Source: an uncultured Actinomycetes bacterium (GTDB lineage: Bacteria; Actinomycetota; Thermoleophilia; RBG-16-64-13). From it: a DNA stretch of 53,455 nucleotides. The notes beneath the pieces are model-generated. The model worked only from the letters and a program-made list of their open reading frames with translations, did no database searches and was not told the DNA's origin. Position 1 is the first letter of the stretch. Every line of letters begins with the position of its first letter. Where the stretch lies: NCBI GenBank assembly GCA_903873715.1, contig CAIQPS010000107.1, positions 1-53,455 of the forward strand. The letters run 5' to 3'. Shown here one piece after another: positions 43,560-53,455 of this stretch. A program made the translations under genes and the position numbers.

Positions 43560-45605
43560 CTACAGGCCGGCCGCGTCGGGTCCCGAGACACCCGGGAGGC
43601 TCGAGCGGTCAGCGGCGCCGGGCAGACCGGAGCCGTCCGCGCCCTTGCCGTCGCCGGCCCCATCGCCGTCGCCGTCCGACCGAAGATGCCGGTAGAGGTG
43701 CACCAGCAGGACGGAGATGTCTGCCGGCGATACGCCTGGTACTCGCGAAGCCTGGCCGAGCGTGGCCGGCCGCAGACGGCTCAACTTGTCCTTGGCCTCG
43801 TACGTCAGACCTTCCAGGGGCCAGTAGTCGAAGGCGTCGGGGACCGGCAGGGTCTCCGTGGCGCGATGCCGCCGGATCTCGGCGAGTTGGCGGCGGATGT
43901 AGCCTTCGTACCTGGCCTGGACCGCGAGTTGCTCGATGACCTCTGTCGGCGCCGCGGCCAAGCGGTCGCGATCGTCCTGGTCGAGCAGGGTCAGAAGATC
44001 GTCGAACGTCACCTGCGGTCTCCGCAGGAGACGACCGGCGGACTGCGATTCTTCCAGAGGCGCCGTCCCAAGAGCGGCCAAGAGGGCATCCGTCTCGGGC
44101 GTGGAGCGAATATTGATGCTCTCCAGCATCTCCGCGTACTCGTCGAACCGGCGCTGCTTCTCTTGGACGGACTCGAATTGCTCGTCCGTGAGCAGTCCGA
44201 GTCCGTGCCCCAGCCCGGAAAGCCGCTCCGCAGCGTTGTCGTGCCGCAAGAGCAGGCGATACTCCGCCCGCGACGTGAACATCCGGTACGGTTCGTCAAC
44301 GCCCTTGGTCACCAGGTCGTCTATCAGCACTCCGATATACGCCTGGCCGCGGCGCAGGATGAACGGGGCCTCCCCGCGAACGTGGAGAGCTGCGTTTATC
44401 CCTGCCATGAGCCCCTGCGCCGCGGCTTCCTCGTAGCCGGAGGTGCCATTGAGCTGGCCGGCGGAGAAAAGTCCCGCCACCGCCTTGGTCTGCAGACCCA
44501 GAGTCAGCTGTTGCGGCGGCAGATAGTCGTATTCCACGGCATAGCCGGGCCGCACCAGACGGGCGTTCTCGAGACCGGGAGTCGCCTTGATGATCTTCTC
44601 CTGCACGAAGACCGGCAGGCTGGTCGTGAGGCCTTGGAGGTACATCTCGTTCGTCGTGACCCCCTCCGGCTCGACGAACACCGGATGATGTTCCTTCTCC
44701 GGGAAGTTGATCAGCTTCCGGTCGATCGAGGGGCAGTAGCGAGGCCCCTTCCCGCTGACCGAGCCGCTCTTCAGCGGGCTCAAGTGCAGGTGCTTGGAGA
44801 CGACTTCATGGGTCGCCCCGGTCGTGTGCGTCAAATAGCAGGGGACCTGACGGCGCGGGGACGGAGTCTCCCAGTGGGAGAAGGAGAGCGGCGTCACATC
44901 CCCCTCTTGAGGGATCATCTTGTCCGGGTCGATCGTGGTGCCGTCGATCCGGGGCGGAGTGGCCGATTGGAATCTGTCCAGCTCGAGGCCAGCATCCAAT
45001 AGGCTCTGGGATAGGCGCAACGCGGGCAATTCACCGACTCGCCCTGCCGCAAAGATGCGGTCACCGATTACGATCTTGCCCCGCAGGAACGTCCCCGTGG
45101 CAAGGACGAGCGCCTGGCAGGGAAGATGGCGGCCGTCGGCCAGACGCAGTCCGCGGATTGTTTCACGTGAAACATCGAGACCGACCGCCTCCCCCTGAAC
45201 CACGTCCAGGTTGGGCGTCCGCGACAAGGTAACCTTCATCCAGTCTTCGTAGAGACGCTTGTCCGCCTGCGCCCGCAAGGCCCGTACAGCCGGCCCCTTG
45301 GAGGTATTGAGCATCTTCAGCTGGATGGATGCGCGGTCAGTATTCCGGCCCTGCTCGCCTCCAAGCGCGTCGACCTCACGCGTCAACTGCCCCTTGCCCA
45401 CCCCGCCGACAGCGGGATTGCACGGCATCAAGGCGATGTTGTCGATATGAAGGGTCACCAGCGCCGTGCGGCAGCCAATGCGTGCGGCAGCCAATGCCGC
45501 TTCGCACCCGGCATGCCCCGCCCCTACGACCACGACGTCGTATCCGCGACCTGCAGAGGGACGCGAGACCTTGCCGGCGACCACAGGTCCAGAAAGGTCA
45601 GGCAC
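43560..45605 (-). CDS. mnmG: tRNA uridine 5-carboxymethylaminomethyl modification enzyme MnmG
   Basis: A 681-residue MnmG (GidA) that with MnmE adds the 5-carboxymethylaminomethyl group to U34 of several tRNAs. The FAD motif is VVVVGAGHAGCEAA; the cysteine motif PCNPAVGGVGKGQL and the second catalytic-Cys region VPCYLTHTT are intact; the C-terminal GidA-associated helical domain that binds MnmE is complete (to RVPGVSPADISVLLVHL). Two GTG starts are possible; 45605 is chosen because of GAGG 5 bases before it and only 8 bases of overlap with the preceding gene, while 45641 would overlap by 44. A perfect parS site lies within it. Confidence 0.94.
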   Translation of the reverse strand: MPDLSGPVVAGKVSRPSAGRGYDVVVVGAGHAGCEAALAAARIGCRTALVTLHIDNIALMPCNPAVGGVGKGQLTREVDALGGEQGRNTDRASIQLKMLNTSKGPAVRALRAQADKRLYEDWMKVTLSRTPNLDVVQGEAVGLDVSRETIRGLRLADGRHLPCQALVLATGTFLRGKIVIGDRIFAAGRVGELPALRLSQSLLDAGLELDRFQSATPPRIDGTTIDPDKMIPQEGDVTPLSFSHWETPSPRRQVPCYLTHTTGATHEVVSKHLHLSPLKSGSVSGKGPRYCPSIDRKLINFPEKEHHPVFVEPEGVTTNEMYLQGLTTSLPVFVQEKIIKATPGLENARLVRPGYAVEYDYLPPQQLTLGLQTKAVAGLFSAGQLNGTSGYEEAAAQGLMAGINAALHVRGEAPFILRRGQAYIGVLIDDLVTKGVDEPYRMFTSRAEYRLLLRHDNAAERLSGLGHGLGLLTDEQFESVQEKQRRFDEYAEMLESINIRSTPETDALLAALGTAPLEESQSAGRLLRRPQVTFDDLLTLLDQDDRDRLAAAPTEVIEQLAVQARYEGYIRRQLAEIRRHRATETLPVPDAFDYWPLEGLTYEAKDKLSRLRPATLGQASRVPGVSPADISVLLVHLYRHLRSDGDGDGAGDGKGADGSGLPGAADRSSLPGVSGPDAAGL
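45159..45174. promoter_or_regulatory. parS centromere site
   Basis: TGTTTCACGTGAAACA, the perfect 16-bp palindromic ParB-binding site, lies inside mnmG, where it encodes part of the sequence around VSRETI. It is about 6.8 kb from the probable oriC, the usual distance. It is the only perfect copy noticed in the window. Confidence 0.95.
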
Positions 45606-46776
45606 CGCAGCCTCGATCCCGAAGGGCAGCGGCGACGGCACCAGCCACTTCCACGCCCGACGTCAGGCTCTCCAGGTAGGTGCGAGCGCCACCGGCCCGC
45701 CCCACAACCCACACGGCGGTGGGGCCGCCAGCGGTCCCGAACCTGCCTCCATCCAGACCCGCGACCGTCTTAGCGGTGACGCGCACGGGCATACGAGTGA
45801 GGACAGAGGCGTCCTCCACCACACCCACGGGCACCCCCGGGTCCAGGTACACCTCCCGAGTTGCGGAACCGTCAGGCGAGATCACCGGACCTTCGCCGGC
45901 CAACTCCGACGCCGCGCTGCTCTCGAGGACCATGGCGAGCCGGGGGTGGTCAAGGTGAGGGGCCGGCGGGAAACCCTCCGGCCAAGCGGTGGTCGGACTA
46001 CCAGACGCCAAGCCGCTCAGGTGACGGGTCTCCAGACTGCCGCTGTTCGCAATCCGCGCGCCGATGGCCTCCGCGAGCGCGTCGAAGTCACGTTCGAGCG
46101 CGCGAGCGCCCACTTCGAGTTCGACGGTCTGGAAACAGGCCCCAAGGCCATCGAGGGCCCGGTACAGCCCTTCGGAAGCCGGCTCCCCGTACCGCCCACC
46201 CTGGACGACGTCGCAGCCGACCTCGGTCTGAGCGTCCAGACTCAACCCGGCCGCAAGTATCACTGCATCGGCCTCGAACACCTCGCCGAAGATCGTCTCG
46301 ACCTGCGCGCGTCGGGGGTGCTGCGCGTGCAGGGGCTGGTGCCCGGCGTCGCCGTCCTGGACAAGCCGCAGATCGGTCACGAACCCCTGCCTGAACCGGA
46401 GGTTGGGAACCGCCTCGAGCAACCGTTTGGTCTCGACGCTGATCCTGCGGCGATCGACGTTGATCGAAGACCCGCCGTCCTCAGGCGCCATTCCGGCTTC
46501 GAGCCATATCGAGCGTAACGGCTCGGGAAGGGTGGCCAGTTTCTGCTCCAGTTCGCCCCGCCCCATCTCCGAAGCGACGAGATCCGGCCCGTAAGCCGGC
46601 AATCCCACGCGATCCATAGCGCTGTTTATGAGAGTCACTTGGATGCCGGACCCCGCCAATGCCACCGCGCAGGCGCAACCGGACACCCCAGCACCGACTA
46701 CAAGTGCATTGGGAGCATCGGCCCCGGCCCCCTGGCCGTCGCCCGTCACCTGATCCGTCATCCTGTCCGTGTCCAT
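45598..46776 (-). CDS. MnmG-like FAD protein lacking the cysteine motif and C-terminal domain
   Basis: A 392-residue flavoprotein placed between mnmE (14-base gap) and mnmG (its stop overlaps the mnmG start region). It begins with a Rossmann motif VVGAGVSGCACAVAL, and along its length aligns by eye with the neighbouring MnmG: GGRYGEPAS to AGRVGELPA, SPDGSATREVYL to EPEGVTTNEMYL, and VGRAGGARTYLESLTSGVEVAGAVAAAL to AGQLNGTSGYEEAAAQGLMAGINAAL. The MnmG PCNPAVGG segment is replaced by PAYGPDLVA, removing the catalytic Cys, and the MnmE-binding C-terminal domain is absent. ATG 46776 is the first start after mnmE and the frame opens only as a shadow beyond it. It may be a partner or regulator of MnmEG, or act on another substrate; no function is claimed. 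Confidence 0.78.
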   Translation of the reverse strand: MDTDRMTDQVTGDGQGAGADAPNALVVGAGVSGCACAVALAGSGIQVTLINSAMDRVGLPAYGPDLVASEMGRGELEQKLATLPEPLRSIWLEAGMAPEDGGSSINVDRRRISVETKRLLEAVPNLRFRQGFVTDLRLVQDGDAGHQPLHAQHPRRAQVETIFGEVFEADAVILAAGLSLDAQTEVGCDVVQGGRYGEPASEGLYRALDGLGACFQTVELEVGARALERDFDALAEAIGARIANSGSLETRHLSGLASGSPTTAWPEGFPPAPHLDHPRLAMVLESSAASELAGEGPVISPDGSATREVYLDPGVPVGVVEDASVLTRMPVRVTAKTVAGLDGGRFGTAGGPTAVWVVGRAGGARTYLESLTSGVEVAGAVAAALRDRGCGA

Positions 46777-46790
46777 TGCTTCGCCCGTCT

Positions 46791-48386
46791 CTACTTGCCG
46801 ATGCAGAATCGGCTGAATATCTCGTCCAGAAGGTCCTGGGTCAGGTCCTCGCCGGTGATGCGGCCGAGCGCCGACACGGCTTCCCGGATGTCCTCGCAGA
46901 CAAGCTCCTCGTCGTCTTCGCGAGAGGCGGTCGCAAGGGCGCATTCCGTGTGGGAGAAGGCTTCCCCGACCAGACCTCGCTGCCGCTCCGTGGCAAGAAC
47001 GGGCTCCTCCAGATGAAGGCCCTCACCGCCGCTGATGACCGCCTCGATGGTGGCCCTCAACTCGTCCAAGCCCTCGCCGGTCGCGGCGGAAACGCCGCAG
47101 ACACGCCATCCGCCCGCCGCGCCGGGTTCTCCACCCAACACCGCCGCCAGACTGTCGATCCTCGAAACGGCTCCCGCGCCGCCCTCTCGGGCCTCGCCAG
47201 ACTCTTCGGCGCCGCCAACCCCCGCGGCCCCGCCGGCCTCGCGGGCAGATCCACCTTCGCCGCCCCGGCCGCCCTCGCCGGACCGCGCCCGGTCGCCGAT
47301 GAGGTCCACTTTGTTGCAGACCACGATCGCACGGCCTCGATCCAGCCCACGGATGAACTCGTAGTCCTCCTCGCTCCACTCCGCCGACGCGTCGAGCACC
47401 GCAAGGACGAGATCCGCTTGCTCCATCGCCTTCACGGAGCGCGCCACGCCCAGCTGCTCGACATGGTCGCCCCCGCTCCTGATACCCGCGGTGTCGACAA
47501 GATGGATGGGGATGCCGCCGATCTCCATGAGTTCTTCGACCGTGTCGCGGGTGGTGCCGGGGATGTCCGACACGATGGCGCGTTCCCGCATGAGCAGGGC
47601 ATTGAGCAGAGAGCTCTTGCCCACGTTCGGCTTCCCGACGATTGCGGTGCGCAGACCATGCTCGAGAGCCTGGCCGACGAACGCCGTCTTGAGCAGCTTG
47701 TCCAGATCCATCCGGGCAGCCTGCAAACCTCCCCGAAGACCGGTCCAATCGAGAGCGTCGATGTCCTCGTCCGAGAAGTCGACGGTCGCCTCGATCTGCG
47801 CGAGCAGACCCACCAGCGCGTGGCGCGCCGCCCTCAGCTTCTCGGAGAGACCGCCCTCCAGTTGCCGCACCGACGCCCTCAGAGCCCCGGAGCTGCGGGC
47901 CGAGACTATCGCGGCCACACTCTCGGCCTGCGCCAGGTCTATGCGCCCGTTAAGGAAGGCCCTCTTGGTGAACTCGCCGGGTTCGGCAGGCCTTGCGCCG
48001 AGATGCACCAGCAGCCGCAGCACCGCCCGCTGCGCCGCCACTCCGCCATGGCAATGCACCTCGACCACGTCCTCACGGGTGTAGGAGTGGGGCGCGCGCA
48101 TCACGGCCACGAGCACTTCGTCAACGTCGTGCCCGTCACGCGGATCGACCACGTGGCCGTACGAAAGCTTGTACGTGCCCTGAAGCCCCCCGGCAGCCCC
48201 CTTGCCCGGCCGGAACACAGAAGCCGCGATACCTACCGCTTCTGGACCGCTCATCCTGACGATCCCGATGGCGCCGATCCCGGTGCCGGTCGAGAGCGCC
48301 ACGATGGTGTCCTCGTCCCACGCGGGAGGGCCACCGGCAATGCCGGAGCCCAGTGAAGGCTCGATATGTGGACTGTCGGACGTCAC
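46791..48386 (-). CDS. mnmE: tRNA modification GTPase MnmE
   Basis: A 531-residue MnmE (TrmE/ThdF). The formyl-THF-binding N-domain starts DTIVALSTGTGIGAIGIVRMSG; the Ras-like G domain has GKPNVGKSSLLN, DIPGTTRDT, DTAGIR and NKVDL; the protein ends FCIGK with the catalytic Cys. It works with MnmG on U34 of tRNA. The G domain has an unusual 40-residue Gly/Ala/Glu-rich insert after NKVDL (GEGGRGGEGG...), absent from typical MnmE. The GTG at 48384-48386 is the likely start; the frame is open far upstream without family similarity. Confidence 0.95.
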   Translation of the reverse strand: MTSDSPHIEPSLGSGIAGGPPAWDEDTIVALSTGTGIGAIGIVRMSGPEAVGIAASVFRPGKGAAGGLQGTYKLSYGHVVDPRDGHDVDEVLVAVMRAPHSYTREDVVEVHCHGGVAAQRAVLRLLVHLGARPAEPGEFTKRAFLNGRIDLAQAESVAAIVSARSSGALRASVRQLEGGLSEKLRAARHALVGLLAQIEATVDFSDEDIDALDWTGLRGGLQAARMDLDKLLKTAFVGQALEHGLRTAIVGKPNVGKSSLLNALLMRERAIVSDIPGTTRDTVEELMEIGGIPIHLVDTAGIRSGGDHVEQLGVARSVKAMEQADLVLAVLDASAEWSEEDYEFIRGLDRGRAIVVCNKVDLIGDRARSGEGGRGGEGGSAREAGGAAGVGGAEESGEAREGGAGAVSRIDSLAAVLGGEPGAAGGWRVCGVSAATGEGLDELRATIEAVISGGEGLHLEEPVLATERQRGLVGEAFSHTECALATASREDDEELVCEDIREAVSALGRITGEDLTQDLLDEIFSRFCIGK

Positions 48387-49503: not shown

Positions 49504-50353
49504 TGGTATTGCCTCCGCTCTTCTTAGCCGGCTGTGTCGAGGTGGTGGTCTTGGCCTTCGCAGGAGCAGTACCCGCCTTCGCCACCGGCTTTGCAGGCGC
49601 TTTGCCGGCGGTCTTGCCGGTGGTCGGCCTGCTCGTGGTCCGACTGGTCGATTTGACGGGTGTCCTCTCCTTGGCCGACGTAGCCGCCACAGGCACAGGC
49701 ATCGGCATCAACTTCTCTGCGACATACTGCTGAGCGATCGTCCACAGGTTCGATGTGAACCAGTAGATGAACAGACCTGCAGGCCATTTGCCTATGAACA
49801 TGAACACGCCGACGATGATGGGCATCATGTAGGCGATAGTCTTCTGCTGGCCGGCGCTCTTCCGAGCGGTCTGCCACGAAGCCACGAACTGGCTCCCGAT
49901 GTAGAGGAACATCAAGATGATGTCGAACTTGGTGATGTCCGCGATCCACAGCCAGCTCACAGGCGGCGACGGGAAGGCGAACTCCCCTCCCGGCTGGCCC
50001 GCTATGCGCAGCATGTAGTACAACCCAAGGAACACCGGCAACTGCAGCAGCAACGGGAGACAGGACCCGAACGGGCTGACCTTGTTCTCCTGATAGAACT
50101 CCATGGTCTTCTGGTTCAGGAGCTGCTTGTTGTCCTTATACTTCTCCTGCAGTTCCTTGATCTGCGGAGCGAGCGCCTGCATGGCGCGCATGCTCTTGAT
50201 CTGACGCCAGGTGAGCGGGACCAGCACGATCCTCACTATGATGGTGAGGACGACGATGGACCACGACCAGCTGATCCCCAAGCTGTGGATGTGCAGGATG
50301 ATCCAATGGAACAGGGAGCTCAGCGGTATGTACTGAGTGAAGATCTTTTCCAT
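49412..50353 (-). CDS. yidC: Membrane insertase YidC
   Basis: A 313-residue Oxa1-family insertase of the Gram-positive short type (no large periplasmic domain). About five hydrophobic segments are seen: WSWSIVVLTIIVRIVLVPLTW near 30-50, where the conserved Arg of the hydrophilic groove lies, LPLLLQLPVFLGLYY near 105-118, the DIILMFLYIGS segment, and the last helices around MPIIVGVFMFIGKWPAGLFIYW. The C-terminal 100 residues are Thr/Lys/Ala/Pro-rich and basic, apparently a ribosome-binding tail, whose last part overlaps jag. It inserts and folds membrane proteins. One base separates it from yidD. Confidence 0.95.
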   Translation of the reverse strand: MEKIFTQYIPLSSLFHWIILHIHSLGISWSWSIVVLTIIVRIVLVPLTWRQIKSMRAMQALAPQIKELQEKYKDNKQLLNQKTMEFYQENKVSPFGSCLPLLLQLPVFLGLYYMLRIAGQPGGEFAFPSPPVSWLWIADITKFDIILMFLYIGSQFVASWQTARKSAGQQKTIAYMMPIIVGVFMFIGKWPAGLFIYWFTSNLWTIAQQYVAEKLMPMPVPVAATSAKERTPVKSTSRTTSRPTTGKTAGKAPAKPVAKAGTAPAKAKTTTSTQPAKKSGGNTSGQGTSAKGQAAGSKGQRPDRGDGGSKGSS

Positions 50354-50354
50354 G

Positions 50355-50714
50355 CTAACCCTTCAGCGCCATAGCCTTGGTGTGAGCCTTGGCGTGGCCC
50401 ACGCAGCACGCCTTCCCGTCCCGCCCGTGGTCGTGCCGCCGGAACAGTCTCTGCCGCGACACCGGGTCGTAGCCGCCATAGCTCAGAGGGTTGCAGCGGA
50501 GCACCCGCCACACCGCCAGGACTAGGCCGCGGACCGCTCCGTATTCCCGCACCGCGTCGAGCGCGTACTGGGAACAGGACGGGTAATACTTGCAGCGGCT
50601 CGGGATGCTCGGAGACACCACTACCTGATAGAAGCGGATAGCGGCGACGAACAGCGCCTTCACCGGGTTCCTGAGAGCGCGCACGAGACCGTGCTTCAGA
50701 AGGGCCCGGGTCAT
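50355..50714 (-). CDS. yidD: Membrane protein insertion efficiency factor YidD
   Basis: A 119-residue YidD, recognisable by AAIRFYQVVVSPSIPSRCKYYPSCSQYALDAVREYG and VWRVLRCNPLSYGGYDPV. This small amphipathic inner-membrane-associated protein helps YidC insertion. It overlaps rnpA by 4 bases (ATGA) and precedes yidC, the standard rpmH-rnpA-yidD-yidC order. The extra 30 C-terminal residues contain several His and Cys (RRHDHGRDGKACCVGH) and are longer than usual. Confidence 0.95.
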   Translation of the reverse strand: MTRALLKHGLVRALRNPVKALFVAAIRFYQVVVSPSIPSRCKYYPSCSQYALDAVREYGAVRGLVLAVWRVLRCNPLSYGGYDPVSRQRLFRRHDHGRDGKACCVGHAKAHTKAMALKG

Positions 50715-51112
50715 GATGACGCCCGCCGTTCCTCCACAGAAGCCGGTACCAGAGAGGCCTTGCGGAAGACCTCGAGCATCTTCGCCTCAACGGCCTTCGA
50801 CCCGCCGGTCTCTAGCAGTTCGAGTAGCGGAGTGCGGGCGATGAGAACGAAGTCCATATTCCCCTTGAAAGACTGATCATTGGCTCGGAAGGTCTCCCGA
50901 AGGACACGCTTCACCCGATTCCGATCGACAGCCGTACCAAGACGCTTCGATACCGAGAAACCGACCCGCGGCCTTACTTCCCCTCCGGGAAGTGTTGGCT
51001 CCGTGCGCTCGAAGTAGTACAGAACTAGGTACTTGTTGGCGACAGACCGGCCCGCGCGGTAGACGCGAGCGAAGTCCTCGGAGCGAGAGAGCCGGCCGCG
51101 AGACCGATCCAC
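50711..51112 (-). CDS. rnpA: Ribonuclease P protein component
   Basis: A 133-residue RnpA that supports the RNase P RNA in tRNA 5' maturation. The start RLSRSEDFARVYRAGRS, the VGFSVSKRLGTAVDRNRVKRVLRE block (RNR motif) and the following strand are all present. Translation begins at GTG 51110-51112, 5 bases after the rpmH stop. It overlaps yidD by 4 bases. Confidence 0.96.
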   Translation of the reverse strand: MDRSRGRLSRSEDFARVYRAGRSVANKYLVLYYFERTEPTLPGGEVRPRVGFSVSKRLGTAVDRNRVKRVLRETFRANDQSFKGNMDFVLIARTPLLELLETGGSKAVEAKMLEVFRKASLVPASVEERRASS

Positions 51113-51117
51113 CTGGT

Positions 51118-51252
51118 TTACGCCGACAGGCGCTTACGACCCTTGTCGCGACGACGCTTGAGCACGGCGCGGCCGGCGGCGGTGGCCATCCGGGCGCGGA
51201 AGCCGTGGGTCTTCTTACGCTTGCGCTTGTTCGGCTGATAAGTCCTCTTCAC
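51118..51252 (-). CDS. rpmH: 50S ribosomal protein L34
   Basis: A 44-residue, very basic protein read from GTG 51250-51252: the start [18 protein letters not shown] and the end [11 protein letters not shown] are the L34 signature. A GAGGAAAC site precedes the GTG. It begins the minus-strand origin-proximal operon under a well-formed promoter. Confidence 0.98.
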
Positions 51253-51349
51253 GTTTCCTCACTTAGGCTCAGCGCCGGTGACTCTCCCTGGGCGCGAAGT
51301 AAAAGACGGTTCGATCCCTGCAGGCGCTGGGCGCGCACAAGGGTGGCGA

Positions 51350-51378
51350 AGTATACAAGTCCCGTGTGCAGCCGTCAA
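51350..51378 (-). promoter_or_regulatory. rpmH operon promoter
   Basis: On the minus strand TTGACG (51373-51378), a 17-base spacer, and TATACT (51350-51355) form a near-consensus sigma-70 promoter. Predicted start about 51343 gives a 5' leader of about 90 bases before rpmH. Confidence 0.85.
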
Positions 51379-51487
51379 TCACCCAGACACGCTGGGTCTT
51401 TCCGGCGTGCTATCACATCGGCCGAGGCAGCGCGAGACCAGTGCAAGGGCCGCTGGGGGCGTGACGCTGCAGGCGTACACAGGCTTC

Positions 51488-51505
51488 TGTGGATACTGTG
51501 GAAAA
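51488..51505 (-). promoter_or_regulatory. Two abutting DnaA boxes, left side of origin
   Basis: TGTGGATAC and TGTGGAAAA lie end to end without a spacer, both reading as boxes on the minus strand (one and one mismatch from TTATCCACA). Confidence 0.65.
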
Positions 51506-52023
51506 CTCCCCCGATACTGCTTTTCCAAGGAATAAAGGCCGGGTCCGGCTGTGGAATCCCGTCTGGGGCCAGGACGCTTCCGGCGTACGAGCCTGAGCAG
51601 GGCTCCGTGCGCGCTGTTCGCGCCTCTGGAGCTCGTTGCCCGCACAATGCTTCGTTTACCAGCCGGTTTATGAGAACACGAGGCCCGGGCGCCGCGCTCC
51701 CGCCCTGCGAACCGCGAGCGAGCAGCACAGCCGCCGGGCCGGCCGATCCCGTCTGGGACCGGTCGCTGTCCGGTGCGACCGTGGCGGCCGGACGGAGGAG
51801 GATGCCCTCCCGGGTATCCGCGCGACTCTCGAGCGACCGCGCGGCTCCCTGTCGGAGTTCCGGGTTCCCGCCAGACGCAACACAATCCACCTGCGCAGCA
51901 ACCTGACAACCGGCCCCAAAAGCACCCCGCGAAACGGACTTTCCCCATTATCAACAGAAAACATGGTCTATGCGGGGGCTGCCTTCCACGGTTCTACACG
52001 TTTTCAACAGCTGTGTACGAACA

Positions 52024-52032
52024 TGTGGATAA
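52024..52032 (-). promoter_or_regulatory. Perfect DnaA box TTATCCACA
   Basis: TGTGGATAA on the plus strand, an exact match to the consensus, in the lower-GC part of the origin region. Confidence 0.85.
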
Positions 52033-52226
52033 CTGAGCACTTCTCCCTGCTAAACCGCAATCATCTACCATGAATCGCGGGGGGCGTAAACGCTTGTTCA
52101 GAAGGAAAAAGGTGGAGTTTCCGGGGTTCCGGCAGCGACAGACCTGTGGAAAGAGGGGTCAACGGTGGATAGAATGGCGCTGTCGTTTTGACAAGCACCG
52201 CCGAACACGGTCGGGAAAGGTCGTCA

Positions 52227-53087
52227 GTGCCGACGAATCCCCCAACTGAGCCGTCAGTCCCGCTGACTACCCCCGGACAGCCCGCCGGGCAACCGGCCGG
52301 GCAACCGGCCGGGTCGCCGGCCGCAGGCCCACACCTGGGAGATGCCCTGCCGCGCATCGCGGTGTACCGGGAAGCGGGGGCGCCCCCCCAGGTGGTCACC
52401 GTCTCGGCACCCGCCGTCCCCGGTCCCCCGAGCGGCGCGGAGGCCTCCGCGCCCGGCGACGGCGACCTCATGAGCGAAGTCCTCACCTCCAGGGCGTACG
52501 GTCTGGCCAGGGAGCAAGGAGGTTCCATCCCGCTGGACGTGTTCCGGGAGTTGATCGACAACCTGGTGCACGCCTCGTTCGCGGGAGTGGTGGTGACCAT
52601 CCTCGATGGGGGCAACACCCTGCGGGTGAGCGACCAGGGGCCGGGCATCCCGGACAAGGACGCGGCCCTGCGCCCCGGCTTCACTTCTGCGGACGCCGCC
52701 GCCAAGCGCCACATCCGGGGAGTCGGCTCTGGATTCTCCGTGGTGCAGAGGGCATTGGCCGTCCTCGGCGGGACCCTGCAGATCGAGGACAACCTGGGCA
52801 GGGGCACCGTGGTGACGGCCAGCGTGCCCGCTCCTGTGGAAACTCCTCTCGCGCCCATCCCGGCCCCGGAATATAATCTCCCTGAGCGCCAGCTCAAGGT
52901 TCTGCTGCTGACGGTCGAGCTTGCGCCGGTCGGACCGACCCGCATAGCCCAGGAACTGGGCGTCTCCACGTCGACCGCGTATCGAGACCTTGTGTCACTC
53001 GAGCAGGCAGGCTTCGTAGTCTGCCGTCCAAGCGGGCACCGCTCCGCGACGGACACTGGTCTGGCGTATCTCGACGCGGTTTTGTGA
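52227..53087 (+). CDS. GHKL ATPase-HTH fusion protein between oriC and dnaA
   Basis: A 286-residue protein. A Pro/Thr/Gly-rich start (about 1-60) precedes a GHKL ATPase domain as in histidine kinases and anti-sigma factors: N-box ELIDNLVHA near residue 110, G1 box VSDQGPGIPD near 132, and G2-like GVGSGFSVV near 165. No phosphoacceptor His or receiver domain is seen. The C-terminal 80 residues form a winged helix (LTVELAPVGPTRIAQELGVSTSTAYRDLVSLEQAGFV). GTG 52227 with AAAGG is preferred; TTG 52188 is also possible. A TAGAAT -10-like sequence (52170-52175) lies beside a DnaA box. It is 29 bases before dnaA, so both are probably co-transcribed. Function unknown; ATP-responsive control at the origin is a guess. 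Confidence 0.82.
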   Translation: MPTNPPTEPSVPLTTPGQPAGQPAGQPAGSPAAGPHLGDALPRIAVYREAGAPPQVVTVSAPAVPGPPSGAEASAPGDGDLMSEVLTSRAYGLAREQGGSIPLDVFRELIDNLVHASFAGVVVTILDGGNTLRVSDQGPGIPDKDAALRPGFTSADAAAKRHIRGVGSGFSVVQRALAVLGGTLQIEDNLGRGTVVTASVPAPVETPLAPIPAPEYNLPERQLKVLLLTVELAPVGPTRIAQELGVSTSTAYRDLVSLEQAGFVVCRPSGHRSATDTGLAYLDAVL

Positions 53088-53116
53088 TCAGGGCTTAGGG
53101 GAGTGTGGAGGAGCCC

Positions 53117-53455
53117 GTGGAGGGAAGCTACAGCGACCCCATCTGGGAGAAGGCGCTCGACGTCATCTCCCGGCAGGTCAACGAGGGGACATTCAATATA
53201 TGGTTCGCCCAGACGGCGGGCCTGGGGCTCACCGACAGTCTCTATTCGGTCGGGGTGTCGTCGCAGTTCGCCAAGGATTGGATCGACGCGCGCTTCCGCA
53301 CGATCATGAGCGATGCTGTCACCCAGGTCGTCGGGTCGCCCGTCGACTGTGAGATCGTCGTGGTCCCGGGCCTGGAGCCACGCCTTTCCCAGTCCGGGGG
53401 CGGCGGGACACAGGTCCAAGCGGCGGCATCAGGTAGCGCGGCCGGCGCGGGCGCC
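53117..53455 (+). CDS. dnaA: Replication initiator DnaA (5' part, cut by the window end)
   Basis: Only the first 113 codons are present and the frame is open at the window end. They give DnaA domain I: SDPIWEKALDVISRQVNEGTFNIWFAQT, a VGVSSQFAKDWIDARFRTIM segment, and the beginning of a Gly/Ala-rich domain II linker. The GTG at 53117 is chosen because GGAGG lies 5 bases upstream; another in-frame GTG is at 53105. Location next to the DnaA boxes fits. The AAA+ and DNA-binding domains lie beyond the window. Confidence 0.93.
   Translation, partial: MEGSYSDPIWEKALDVISRQVNEGTFNIWFAQTAGLGLTDSLYSVGVSSQFAKDWIDARFRTIMSDAVTQVVGSPVDCEIVVVPGLEPRLSQSGGGGTQVQAAASGSAAGAGA

Follow-up and report, generated by a model that had tools for sequence, protein, structure and literature searches.

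A gene encoding a GHKL ATPase joined to a C-terminal winged helix (GHKL-wHTH) was found directly upstream of dnaA at the chromosomal replication origin, and dnaA was the next gene, on the same strand, in all 112 testable loci carrying a homologue. Judged from the predicted domains and the gene neighborhood, there is about an even chance that the product is a dedicated, ATP-controlled DNA-binding regulator of the oriC-dnaA locus, acting on initiation or on dnaA expression. Because the gene holds the same spot in more than 100 distantly related bacteria, it probably helps to control the timing of chromosome copying. The window (i.e., the whole stretch of DNA analyzed, 53,455 nucleotides) comprised the whole of contig C107 of an actinobacterial genome and contained the following genes around the origin:

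50711..51112, - strand: rnpA
51112..51255, - strand: rpmH, divergent, on the other flank of the oriC region (translation, with a tblastn flank in relatives)
52227..53087, + strand: gene for the GHKL-ATPase/winged-helix protein, of 286 aa with the GTG start or 299 aa with TTG 52188
53117..53455, + strand: dnaA, 5' part, starting at GTG 53117 or 53105 (DnaA N-terminal domain PF11638, E 3.6e-9)

The order near the contig end was rnpA and rpmH (- strand), a non-coding stretch of approximately 970 bp that contains DnaA boxes, the GHKL-wHTH gene, and dnaA. The original prediction placed the gene 29 bases before dnaA and after the DnaA boxes. Both placements held: 29 bp separated the stop at 53087 from the dnaA GTG at 53117, which was preceded by GGAGGA, and a box cluster lay at 51488-52032. 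The contig end split dnaA, and the rest of it was located on contig C115 (positions 6-1064) of the same genome (80% identity to the DnaA of a relative). The longest form of the GHKL-wHTH open reading frame ran from TTG 52188 to 53087 on the + strand (299 aa). The GTG at 52227 is the likelier start, since GGGAAAGG lies just ahead of this codon and the predicted -10 element TAGAAT has its last base at 52175; the promoter-like site at 52147-52175 would leave TTG 52188 with almost no leader. No Rfam matches were found in 50000-53455 and an RNA element was rejected. Reading the gene as part of a defense system was also rejected, as the PADLOC matches were to generic HTH parts only. Elsewhere in the window, a short GidA/MnmG-like FAD protein was encoded next to mnmE (45598-46944, - strand), its Pfam GIDA match covering profile positions 3-185 of 391, i.e., only the first half.

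Homologues were drawn from relatives, a named genome collection, and further Coriobacteriia, and removal of duplicates left 113 distinct loci besides the window. The 112 testable loci comprised 108 within contigs and four that ended at the origin of a circular chromosome with dnaA at the start of the record; the sequence of the remaining locus (L099) stops 2 bp past the gene. In the 108 loci within contigs, the distance from the gene stop to the first aligned dnaA codon was 5-436 nt (median 47). The gene order, which the original prediction had proposed to check in related genomes, was thus kept throughout rather than poorly conserved. Linked loci spanned Coriobacteriia, Rubrobacteria, part of the Thermoleophilia, and Hakubella. 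Named carriers included: Rubrobacter marinus (complete genome), Atopobium, Olegusella, Slackia, and Candidatus Hakubella. Further carriers were Thermoleophilia and Miltoncostaeales MAGs and a few MAGs of Bacillota, Armatimonadota, and Zipacnadia.

Of 396 genomes sampled from the phylum, a profile of the protein matched 158 (E<=1e-12), mostly once per genome, and gave no match in the other 238. Nor did the profile match families f4-f8 of the class to which the window belongs, in which the region upstream of dnaA lacked the gene. The gene tree and the DnaA tree resolved the same clades, namely: Coriobacteriales, an OPB41-like group, Rubrobacter, and three Thermoleophilia groups; deep branches were weakly supported in these trees and some MAGs had long branches. 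The simplest reading would be an old gene that traveled with dnaA.

The protein was divided into the following features, with box residues invariant in 61 of 61 aligned homologues:

52341..52844, + strand: GHKL (Bergerat) domain (AF2 model pLDDT 88.6, pTM 0.84)
52548-52571, + strand: N-box, E108/N112/H115
52632-52646, + strand: G1 box, D136-x-G-x-G
52719-52733, + strand: G2 box, G165-x-G-x-G
52869..53084, + strand: C-terminal winged helix, with invariant R253 (recognition helix) and R272 (wing)

The ATPase region matched HATPase_c (PF02518) with an E of 1.4e-15, and the C-terminal HTH exceeded the gathering scores for HTH_IclR (26.9 bits, cutoff 22) and HTH_11. A full-length AF2 model (pLDDT 85.1) showed the GHKL domain and the winged helix, the GHKL fold being preceded by about 40 residues modeled at low confidence. 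Invariant positions in the 61 homologues were E108, N112, D136, G138, G140, G165, G167, and G169 of the GHKL domain, R253 and R272 of the wHTH, and likewise H115-A116 of the N-box. The sole conserved histidine, H115, is part of the N-box, so no phosphoacceptor is present; HisKA gave no match to the window protein, and the DHp hairpin was absent from the AF2 model. A histidine-kinase-like ATPase fold without a phosphoacceptor His, fused to a winged helix, had been proposed from the sequence, and these results bear it out. In many Coriobacteriia orthologues (L128-L144) a long Pro/Gln/Tyr/Ala-rich insert separated the GHKL domain from the winged helix, giving open frames of up to ~490 aa.

Between rpmH and the gene, the origin and promoter elements of the window were:

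51488..51505, - strand: two adjoining DnaA-box-like sites (GTATCCACA, TTTTCCACA)
51948..51956, + strand: DnaA-box-like site TTATCAACA
52024..52032, - strand: perfect DnaA box TTATCCACA, 121 bp upstream of the promoter box
52047..52054, + strand: CTGCTAAA, a CTGCAAA variant; this oriC element comes after the DnaA box and is also present in gene-less relatives
52145..52175, + strand: predicted operon promoter, -35 TGGAAA (52147), 17 bp, -10 TAGAAT (52170-52175), from a promoter scan and relatives

Five near-perfect matches to TTATCCACA (<=1 mismatch) occurred in the window, where ~2.4 would be expected in 53 kb, and four of the five fell within 51488-52032. The box-like TGTGGAAAG at 52145-52153 overlapped the -35 TGGAAA. 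Across 51.2-53.2 kb, an independent promoter scan returned a single promoter-like site on the + strand, TGGAAA-17-TAGAAT. In 17 loci (the window and close relatives) TGTGGAA overlapped the -35, the -10 was TA(C/G/T)AAT, and the spacing was near-fixed; the anchor pattern itself demanded TGTGGAA and the -10, so that their presence in these loci was partly selected. One relative (L021) did not contain the anchor pattern. The DnaA-box-like site that had been predicted at 52145 in a probable promoter was therefore recovered, overlapping the -35 and similarly placed in close relatives.

A TGTGGATAA-type box lay 118-121 bp upstream of the promoter box in the 17 loci, a distance outside the anchor pattern. 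The stretch between the two boxes was scarcely kept (3 of 90 columns conserved at 80%), and this fixed spacing across an unconserved interval suggests a rigid nucleoprotein geometry. OPB41-like genomes had a TGTTGATAA box immediately before the gene. In families f5 and f7 of the window's class (L120-L123), almost no DnaA boxes were recognizable upstream of dnaA. DnaA autoregulation at dnaA promoters is established in several bacteria (PMC8203912). The promoter DnaA box would fit such autoregulation, here of a predicted operon that includes the GHKL-wHTH gene.

A de novo inverted-repeat scan found no gene-specific operator, and the enriched upstream dyads, except for TGAAANNTTTCA in some Atopobiaceae, were DnaA-box pairs. 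The CTGCAAA element was located ~14 nt after a TGTGGATAA-type box in the window, L033, L034, L036, L071-L088, L111, L113, L115, and L119. It was common to Rubrobacter and Thermoleophilia with or without the GHKL-wHTH gene. As an operator of the protein, CTGCAAA was rejected on account of its same place in the gene-less relatives L111, L113, L115, and L119, and the inverted DnaA-box pair was rejected because it too was present in gene-less relatives. Both elements thus belong to oriC rather than to the GHKL-wHTH protein, and CTGCAAA is possibly part of the oriC unwinding element.

TGAAANNTTTCA-like palindromes, often paired ~30 bp apart, were seen in the leaders of Atopobiaceae genes (L080-L110, L133, L142, L145). 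Within an Atopobiaceae subset, TGAAANNTTTCA occurred 20 times across 12 of 16 loci, against 0.12 expected. The inverted-repeat scan found no such palindrome in other clades, the exact tandem form had no match in 99 sampled genomes of that class, and TGAAANNTTTCA overlaps a weak DnaA-box-like TGTTGAAAA. These palindromes could be an operator or weak DnaA boxes; given the overlap and the absence of the exact tandem from the 99 genomes, no operator is claimed.

Altogether, the original prediction of an ATP-sensing DNA-binding regulator stood in part. The domain reading, the conserved linkage to dnaA, the invariant nucleotide-site motifs and two wHTH arginines, and the promoter DnaA box speak for it, as do the clades shared by the gene and DnaA trees and the mostly single match per genome; the failure to find a gene-specific operator speaks against it, as does the lack of a match in families f4-f8 and in 238 of the 396 genomes. 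Under the proposed mechanism the gene would be cotranscribed with dnaA, as judged from the short spacing, the shared strand, and the lack of any + strand terminator-like site between the two genes. DnaA would probably tune both genes through the box that overlaps the -35 of their shared promoter. ATP would be held in the GHKL pocket, and its state would most likely set dimerization and hence the DNA affinity of the winged helix. The protein, presumably bound in the rpmH-dnaA interval, would then modulate the amount of DnaA and/or the ease with which DnaA assembles there, and initiation would be coupled to the adenylate state.

Two alternatives are narrower versions of this explanation and partly nested within it, so that the confidences given are not exclusive. 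The protein may be purely a transcriptional autoregulator, the wHTH repressing or activating only the gene-dnaA promoter and setting the supply of DnaA, with no direct role in the orisome. This is possible but doubtful: the cotranscribed arrangement and a wHTH nearest to MarR/IclR/TrmB/CggR-type domains argue for it, and the Atopobiaceae leader palindromes could supply its operator, although their restriction to that group, the missing exact tandem, and the overlap with TGTTGAAAA weaken this last point. Somewhat less probable is a direct initiation factor that binds oriC or DnaA and gates unwinding, as SirA, Soj, or YabA act on Bacillus DnaA, leaving transcription unaffected. Position at oriC, co-inheritance with DnaA, the lack of a detected promoter operator, and the rigid 118-121 bp geometry are consistent with such a factor; that geometry, however, may have to do only with DnaA or RNA polymerase, and a wHTH suits a transcription factor equally well.

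Two further readings depart from a regulator of the locus, and each is improbable. A partner-switching kinase or anti-sigma-like protein would bind or phosphorylate a partner through its GHKL domain, as SpoIIAB/RsbW do, and use the wHTH for docking. The N-box E-x3-N-x2-HA resembles that of RsbW/SpoIIAB, and SpoIIAB was the second structural match of the GHKL domain (Z 11.3). It was tied with histidine kinases, though (CpxA, 11.1), HATPase_c_2 (PF13581) matched weakly in only 4 of 61 members (best E 9e-4), and no STAS or sigma partner gene was present in the conserved rpmH-gene-dnaA-dnaN neighborhood. Alternatively, the gene may be a passenger, an ancient regulator of the HTH type that controls some other process and sits beside dnaA only because the origin region seldom rearranges. 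The rpmH-rnpA-yidD-yidC / dnaA-dnaN order is generally kept, and regulators can act in trans. Against a passenger, the gene was never unlinked among the testable loci, including some in which rpmH synteny was lost (e.g., L042, L045, L051), and its promoter is apparently common to dnaA.

How initiation is coupled to metabolism in bacteria is a long-standing question, and what has been worked out comes mainly from E. coli, Bacillus, and Caulobacter. We know of no characterized initiation regulator in gut Coriobacteriia, Rubrobacter, or uncultured Thermoleophilia. For these lineages, an invariably dnaA-linked protein with intact ATP-site motifs and a predicted DNA-binding domain is a concrete target for that question. 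More speculatively, the locus-specific regulator favored above may represent an ancient, previously undescribed class of initiation regulator: the nucleotide state of the GHKL ATPase itself would directly govern a complex sitting on oriC DNA, and several actinobacterial lineages would thereby have an adenylate-sensing second switch beside DnaA-ATP/ADP. A search of open-licence papers turned up no account of a GHKL regulator held in place next to dnaA. Its parts are of known kinds, and the GHKL-wHTH fusion has a solved example (3LMM); the dnaA-locked arrangement is what lacks a published description in those papers.

If the protein controls DnaA at the origin as proposed, its role resembles that of the initiation regulators SirA, Soj, and YabA of Bacillus and Hda and SeqA of E. 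coli. To our knowledge all five fall outside the GHKL proteins, and their domains are unrelated to its own. Sensor histidine kinases (CpxA, EnvZ, HK853; PF02518) share its ATPase domain family (structural Z ~11), but the window protein has a wHTH in place of the HisKA/DHp, phosphoacceptor His, and sensor or membrane parts; with the HATPase_c N, G1, and G2 boxes present but no DHp or phosphoacceptor His, identity as a histidine kinase was rejected. The SpoIIAB/RsbW anti-sigma kinases are stand-alone GHKL proteins with an N-box of E-x3-N-x2-H-A/G, to which the window protein adds the wHTH. The winged helices of MarR, IclR, TrmB, and CggR share its wHTH fold (Z 11-13 over ~70 residues), and the AF2 wHTH region resembled MarR/CggR DNA-binding domains, including the DNA-bound 7oyk and 5h3r. 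The effector/dimerization (sensor) domains of these regulators are absent from the window protein, and the HATPase_c domain occupies their place. DIP2311 of Corynebacterium diphtheriae (PDB 3LMM; function unknown) differs in its large N-terminal part ahead of the GHKL domain (aligned from residue 237), which we take to be AlbA_2; the window protein, with its ~40 low-confidence residues there, gave no match to AlbA_2 (Schlafen-like). Among the matches listed, 3LMM was the best solved structure (Z 13.8 for the whole model, 13.9 for the GHKL domain alone), and like the window protein it has a GHKL domain followed by an HTH region, which Foldseek also aligned.
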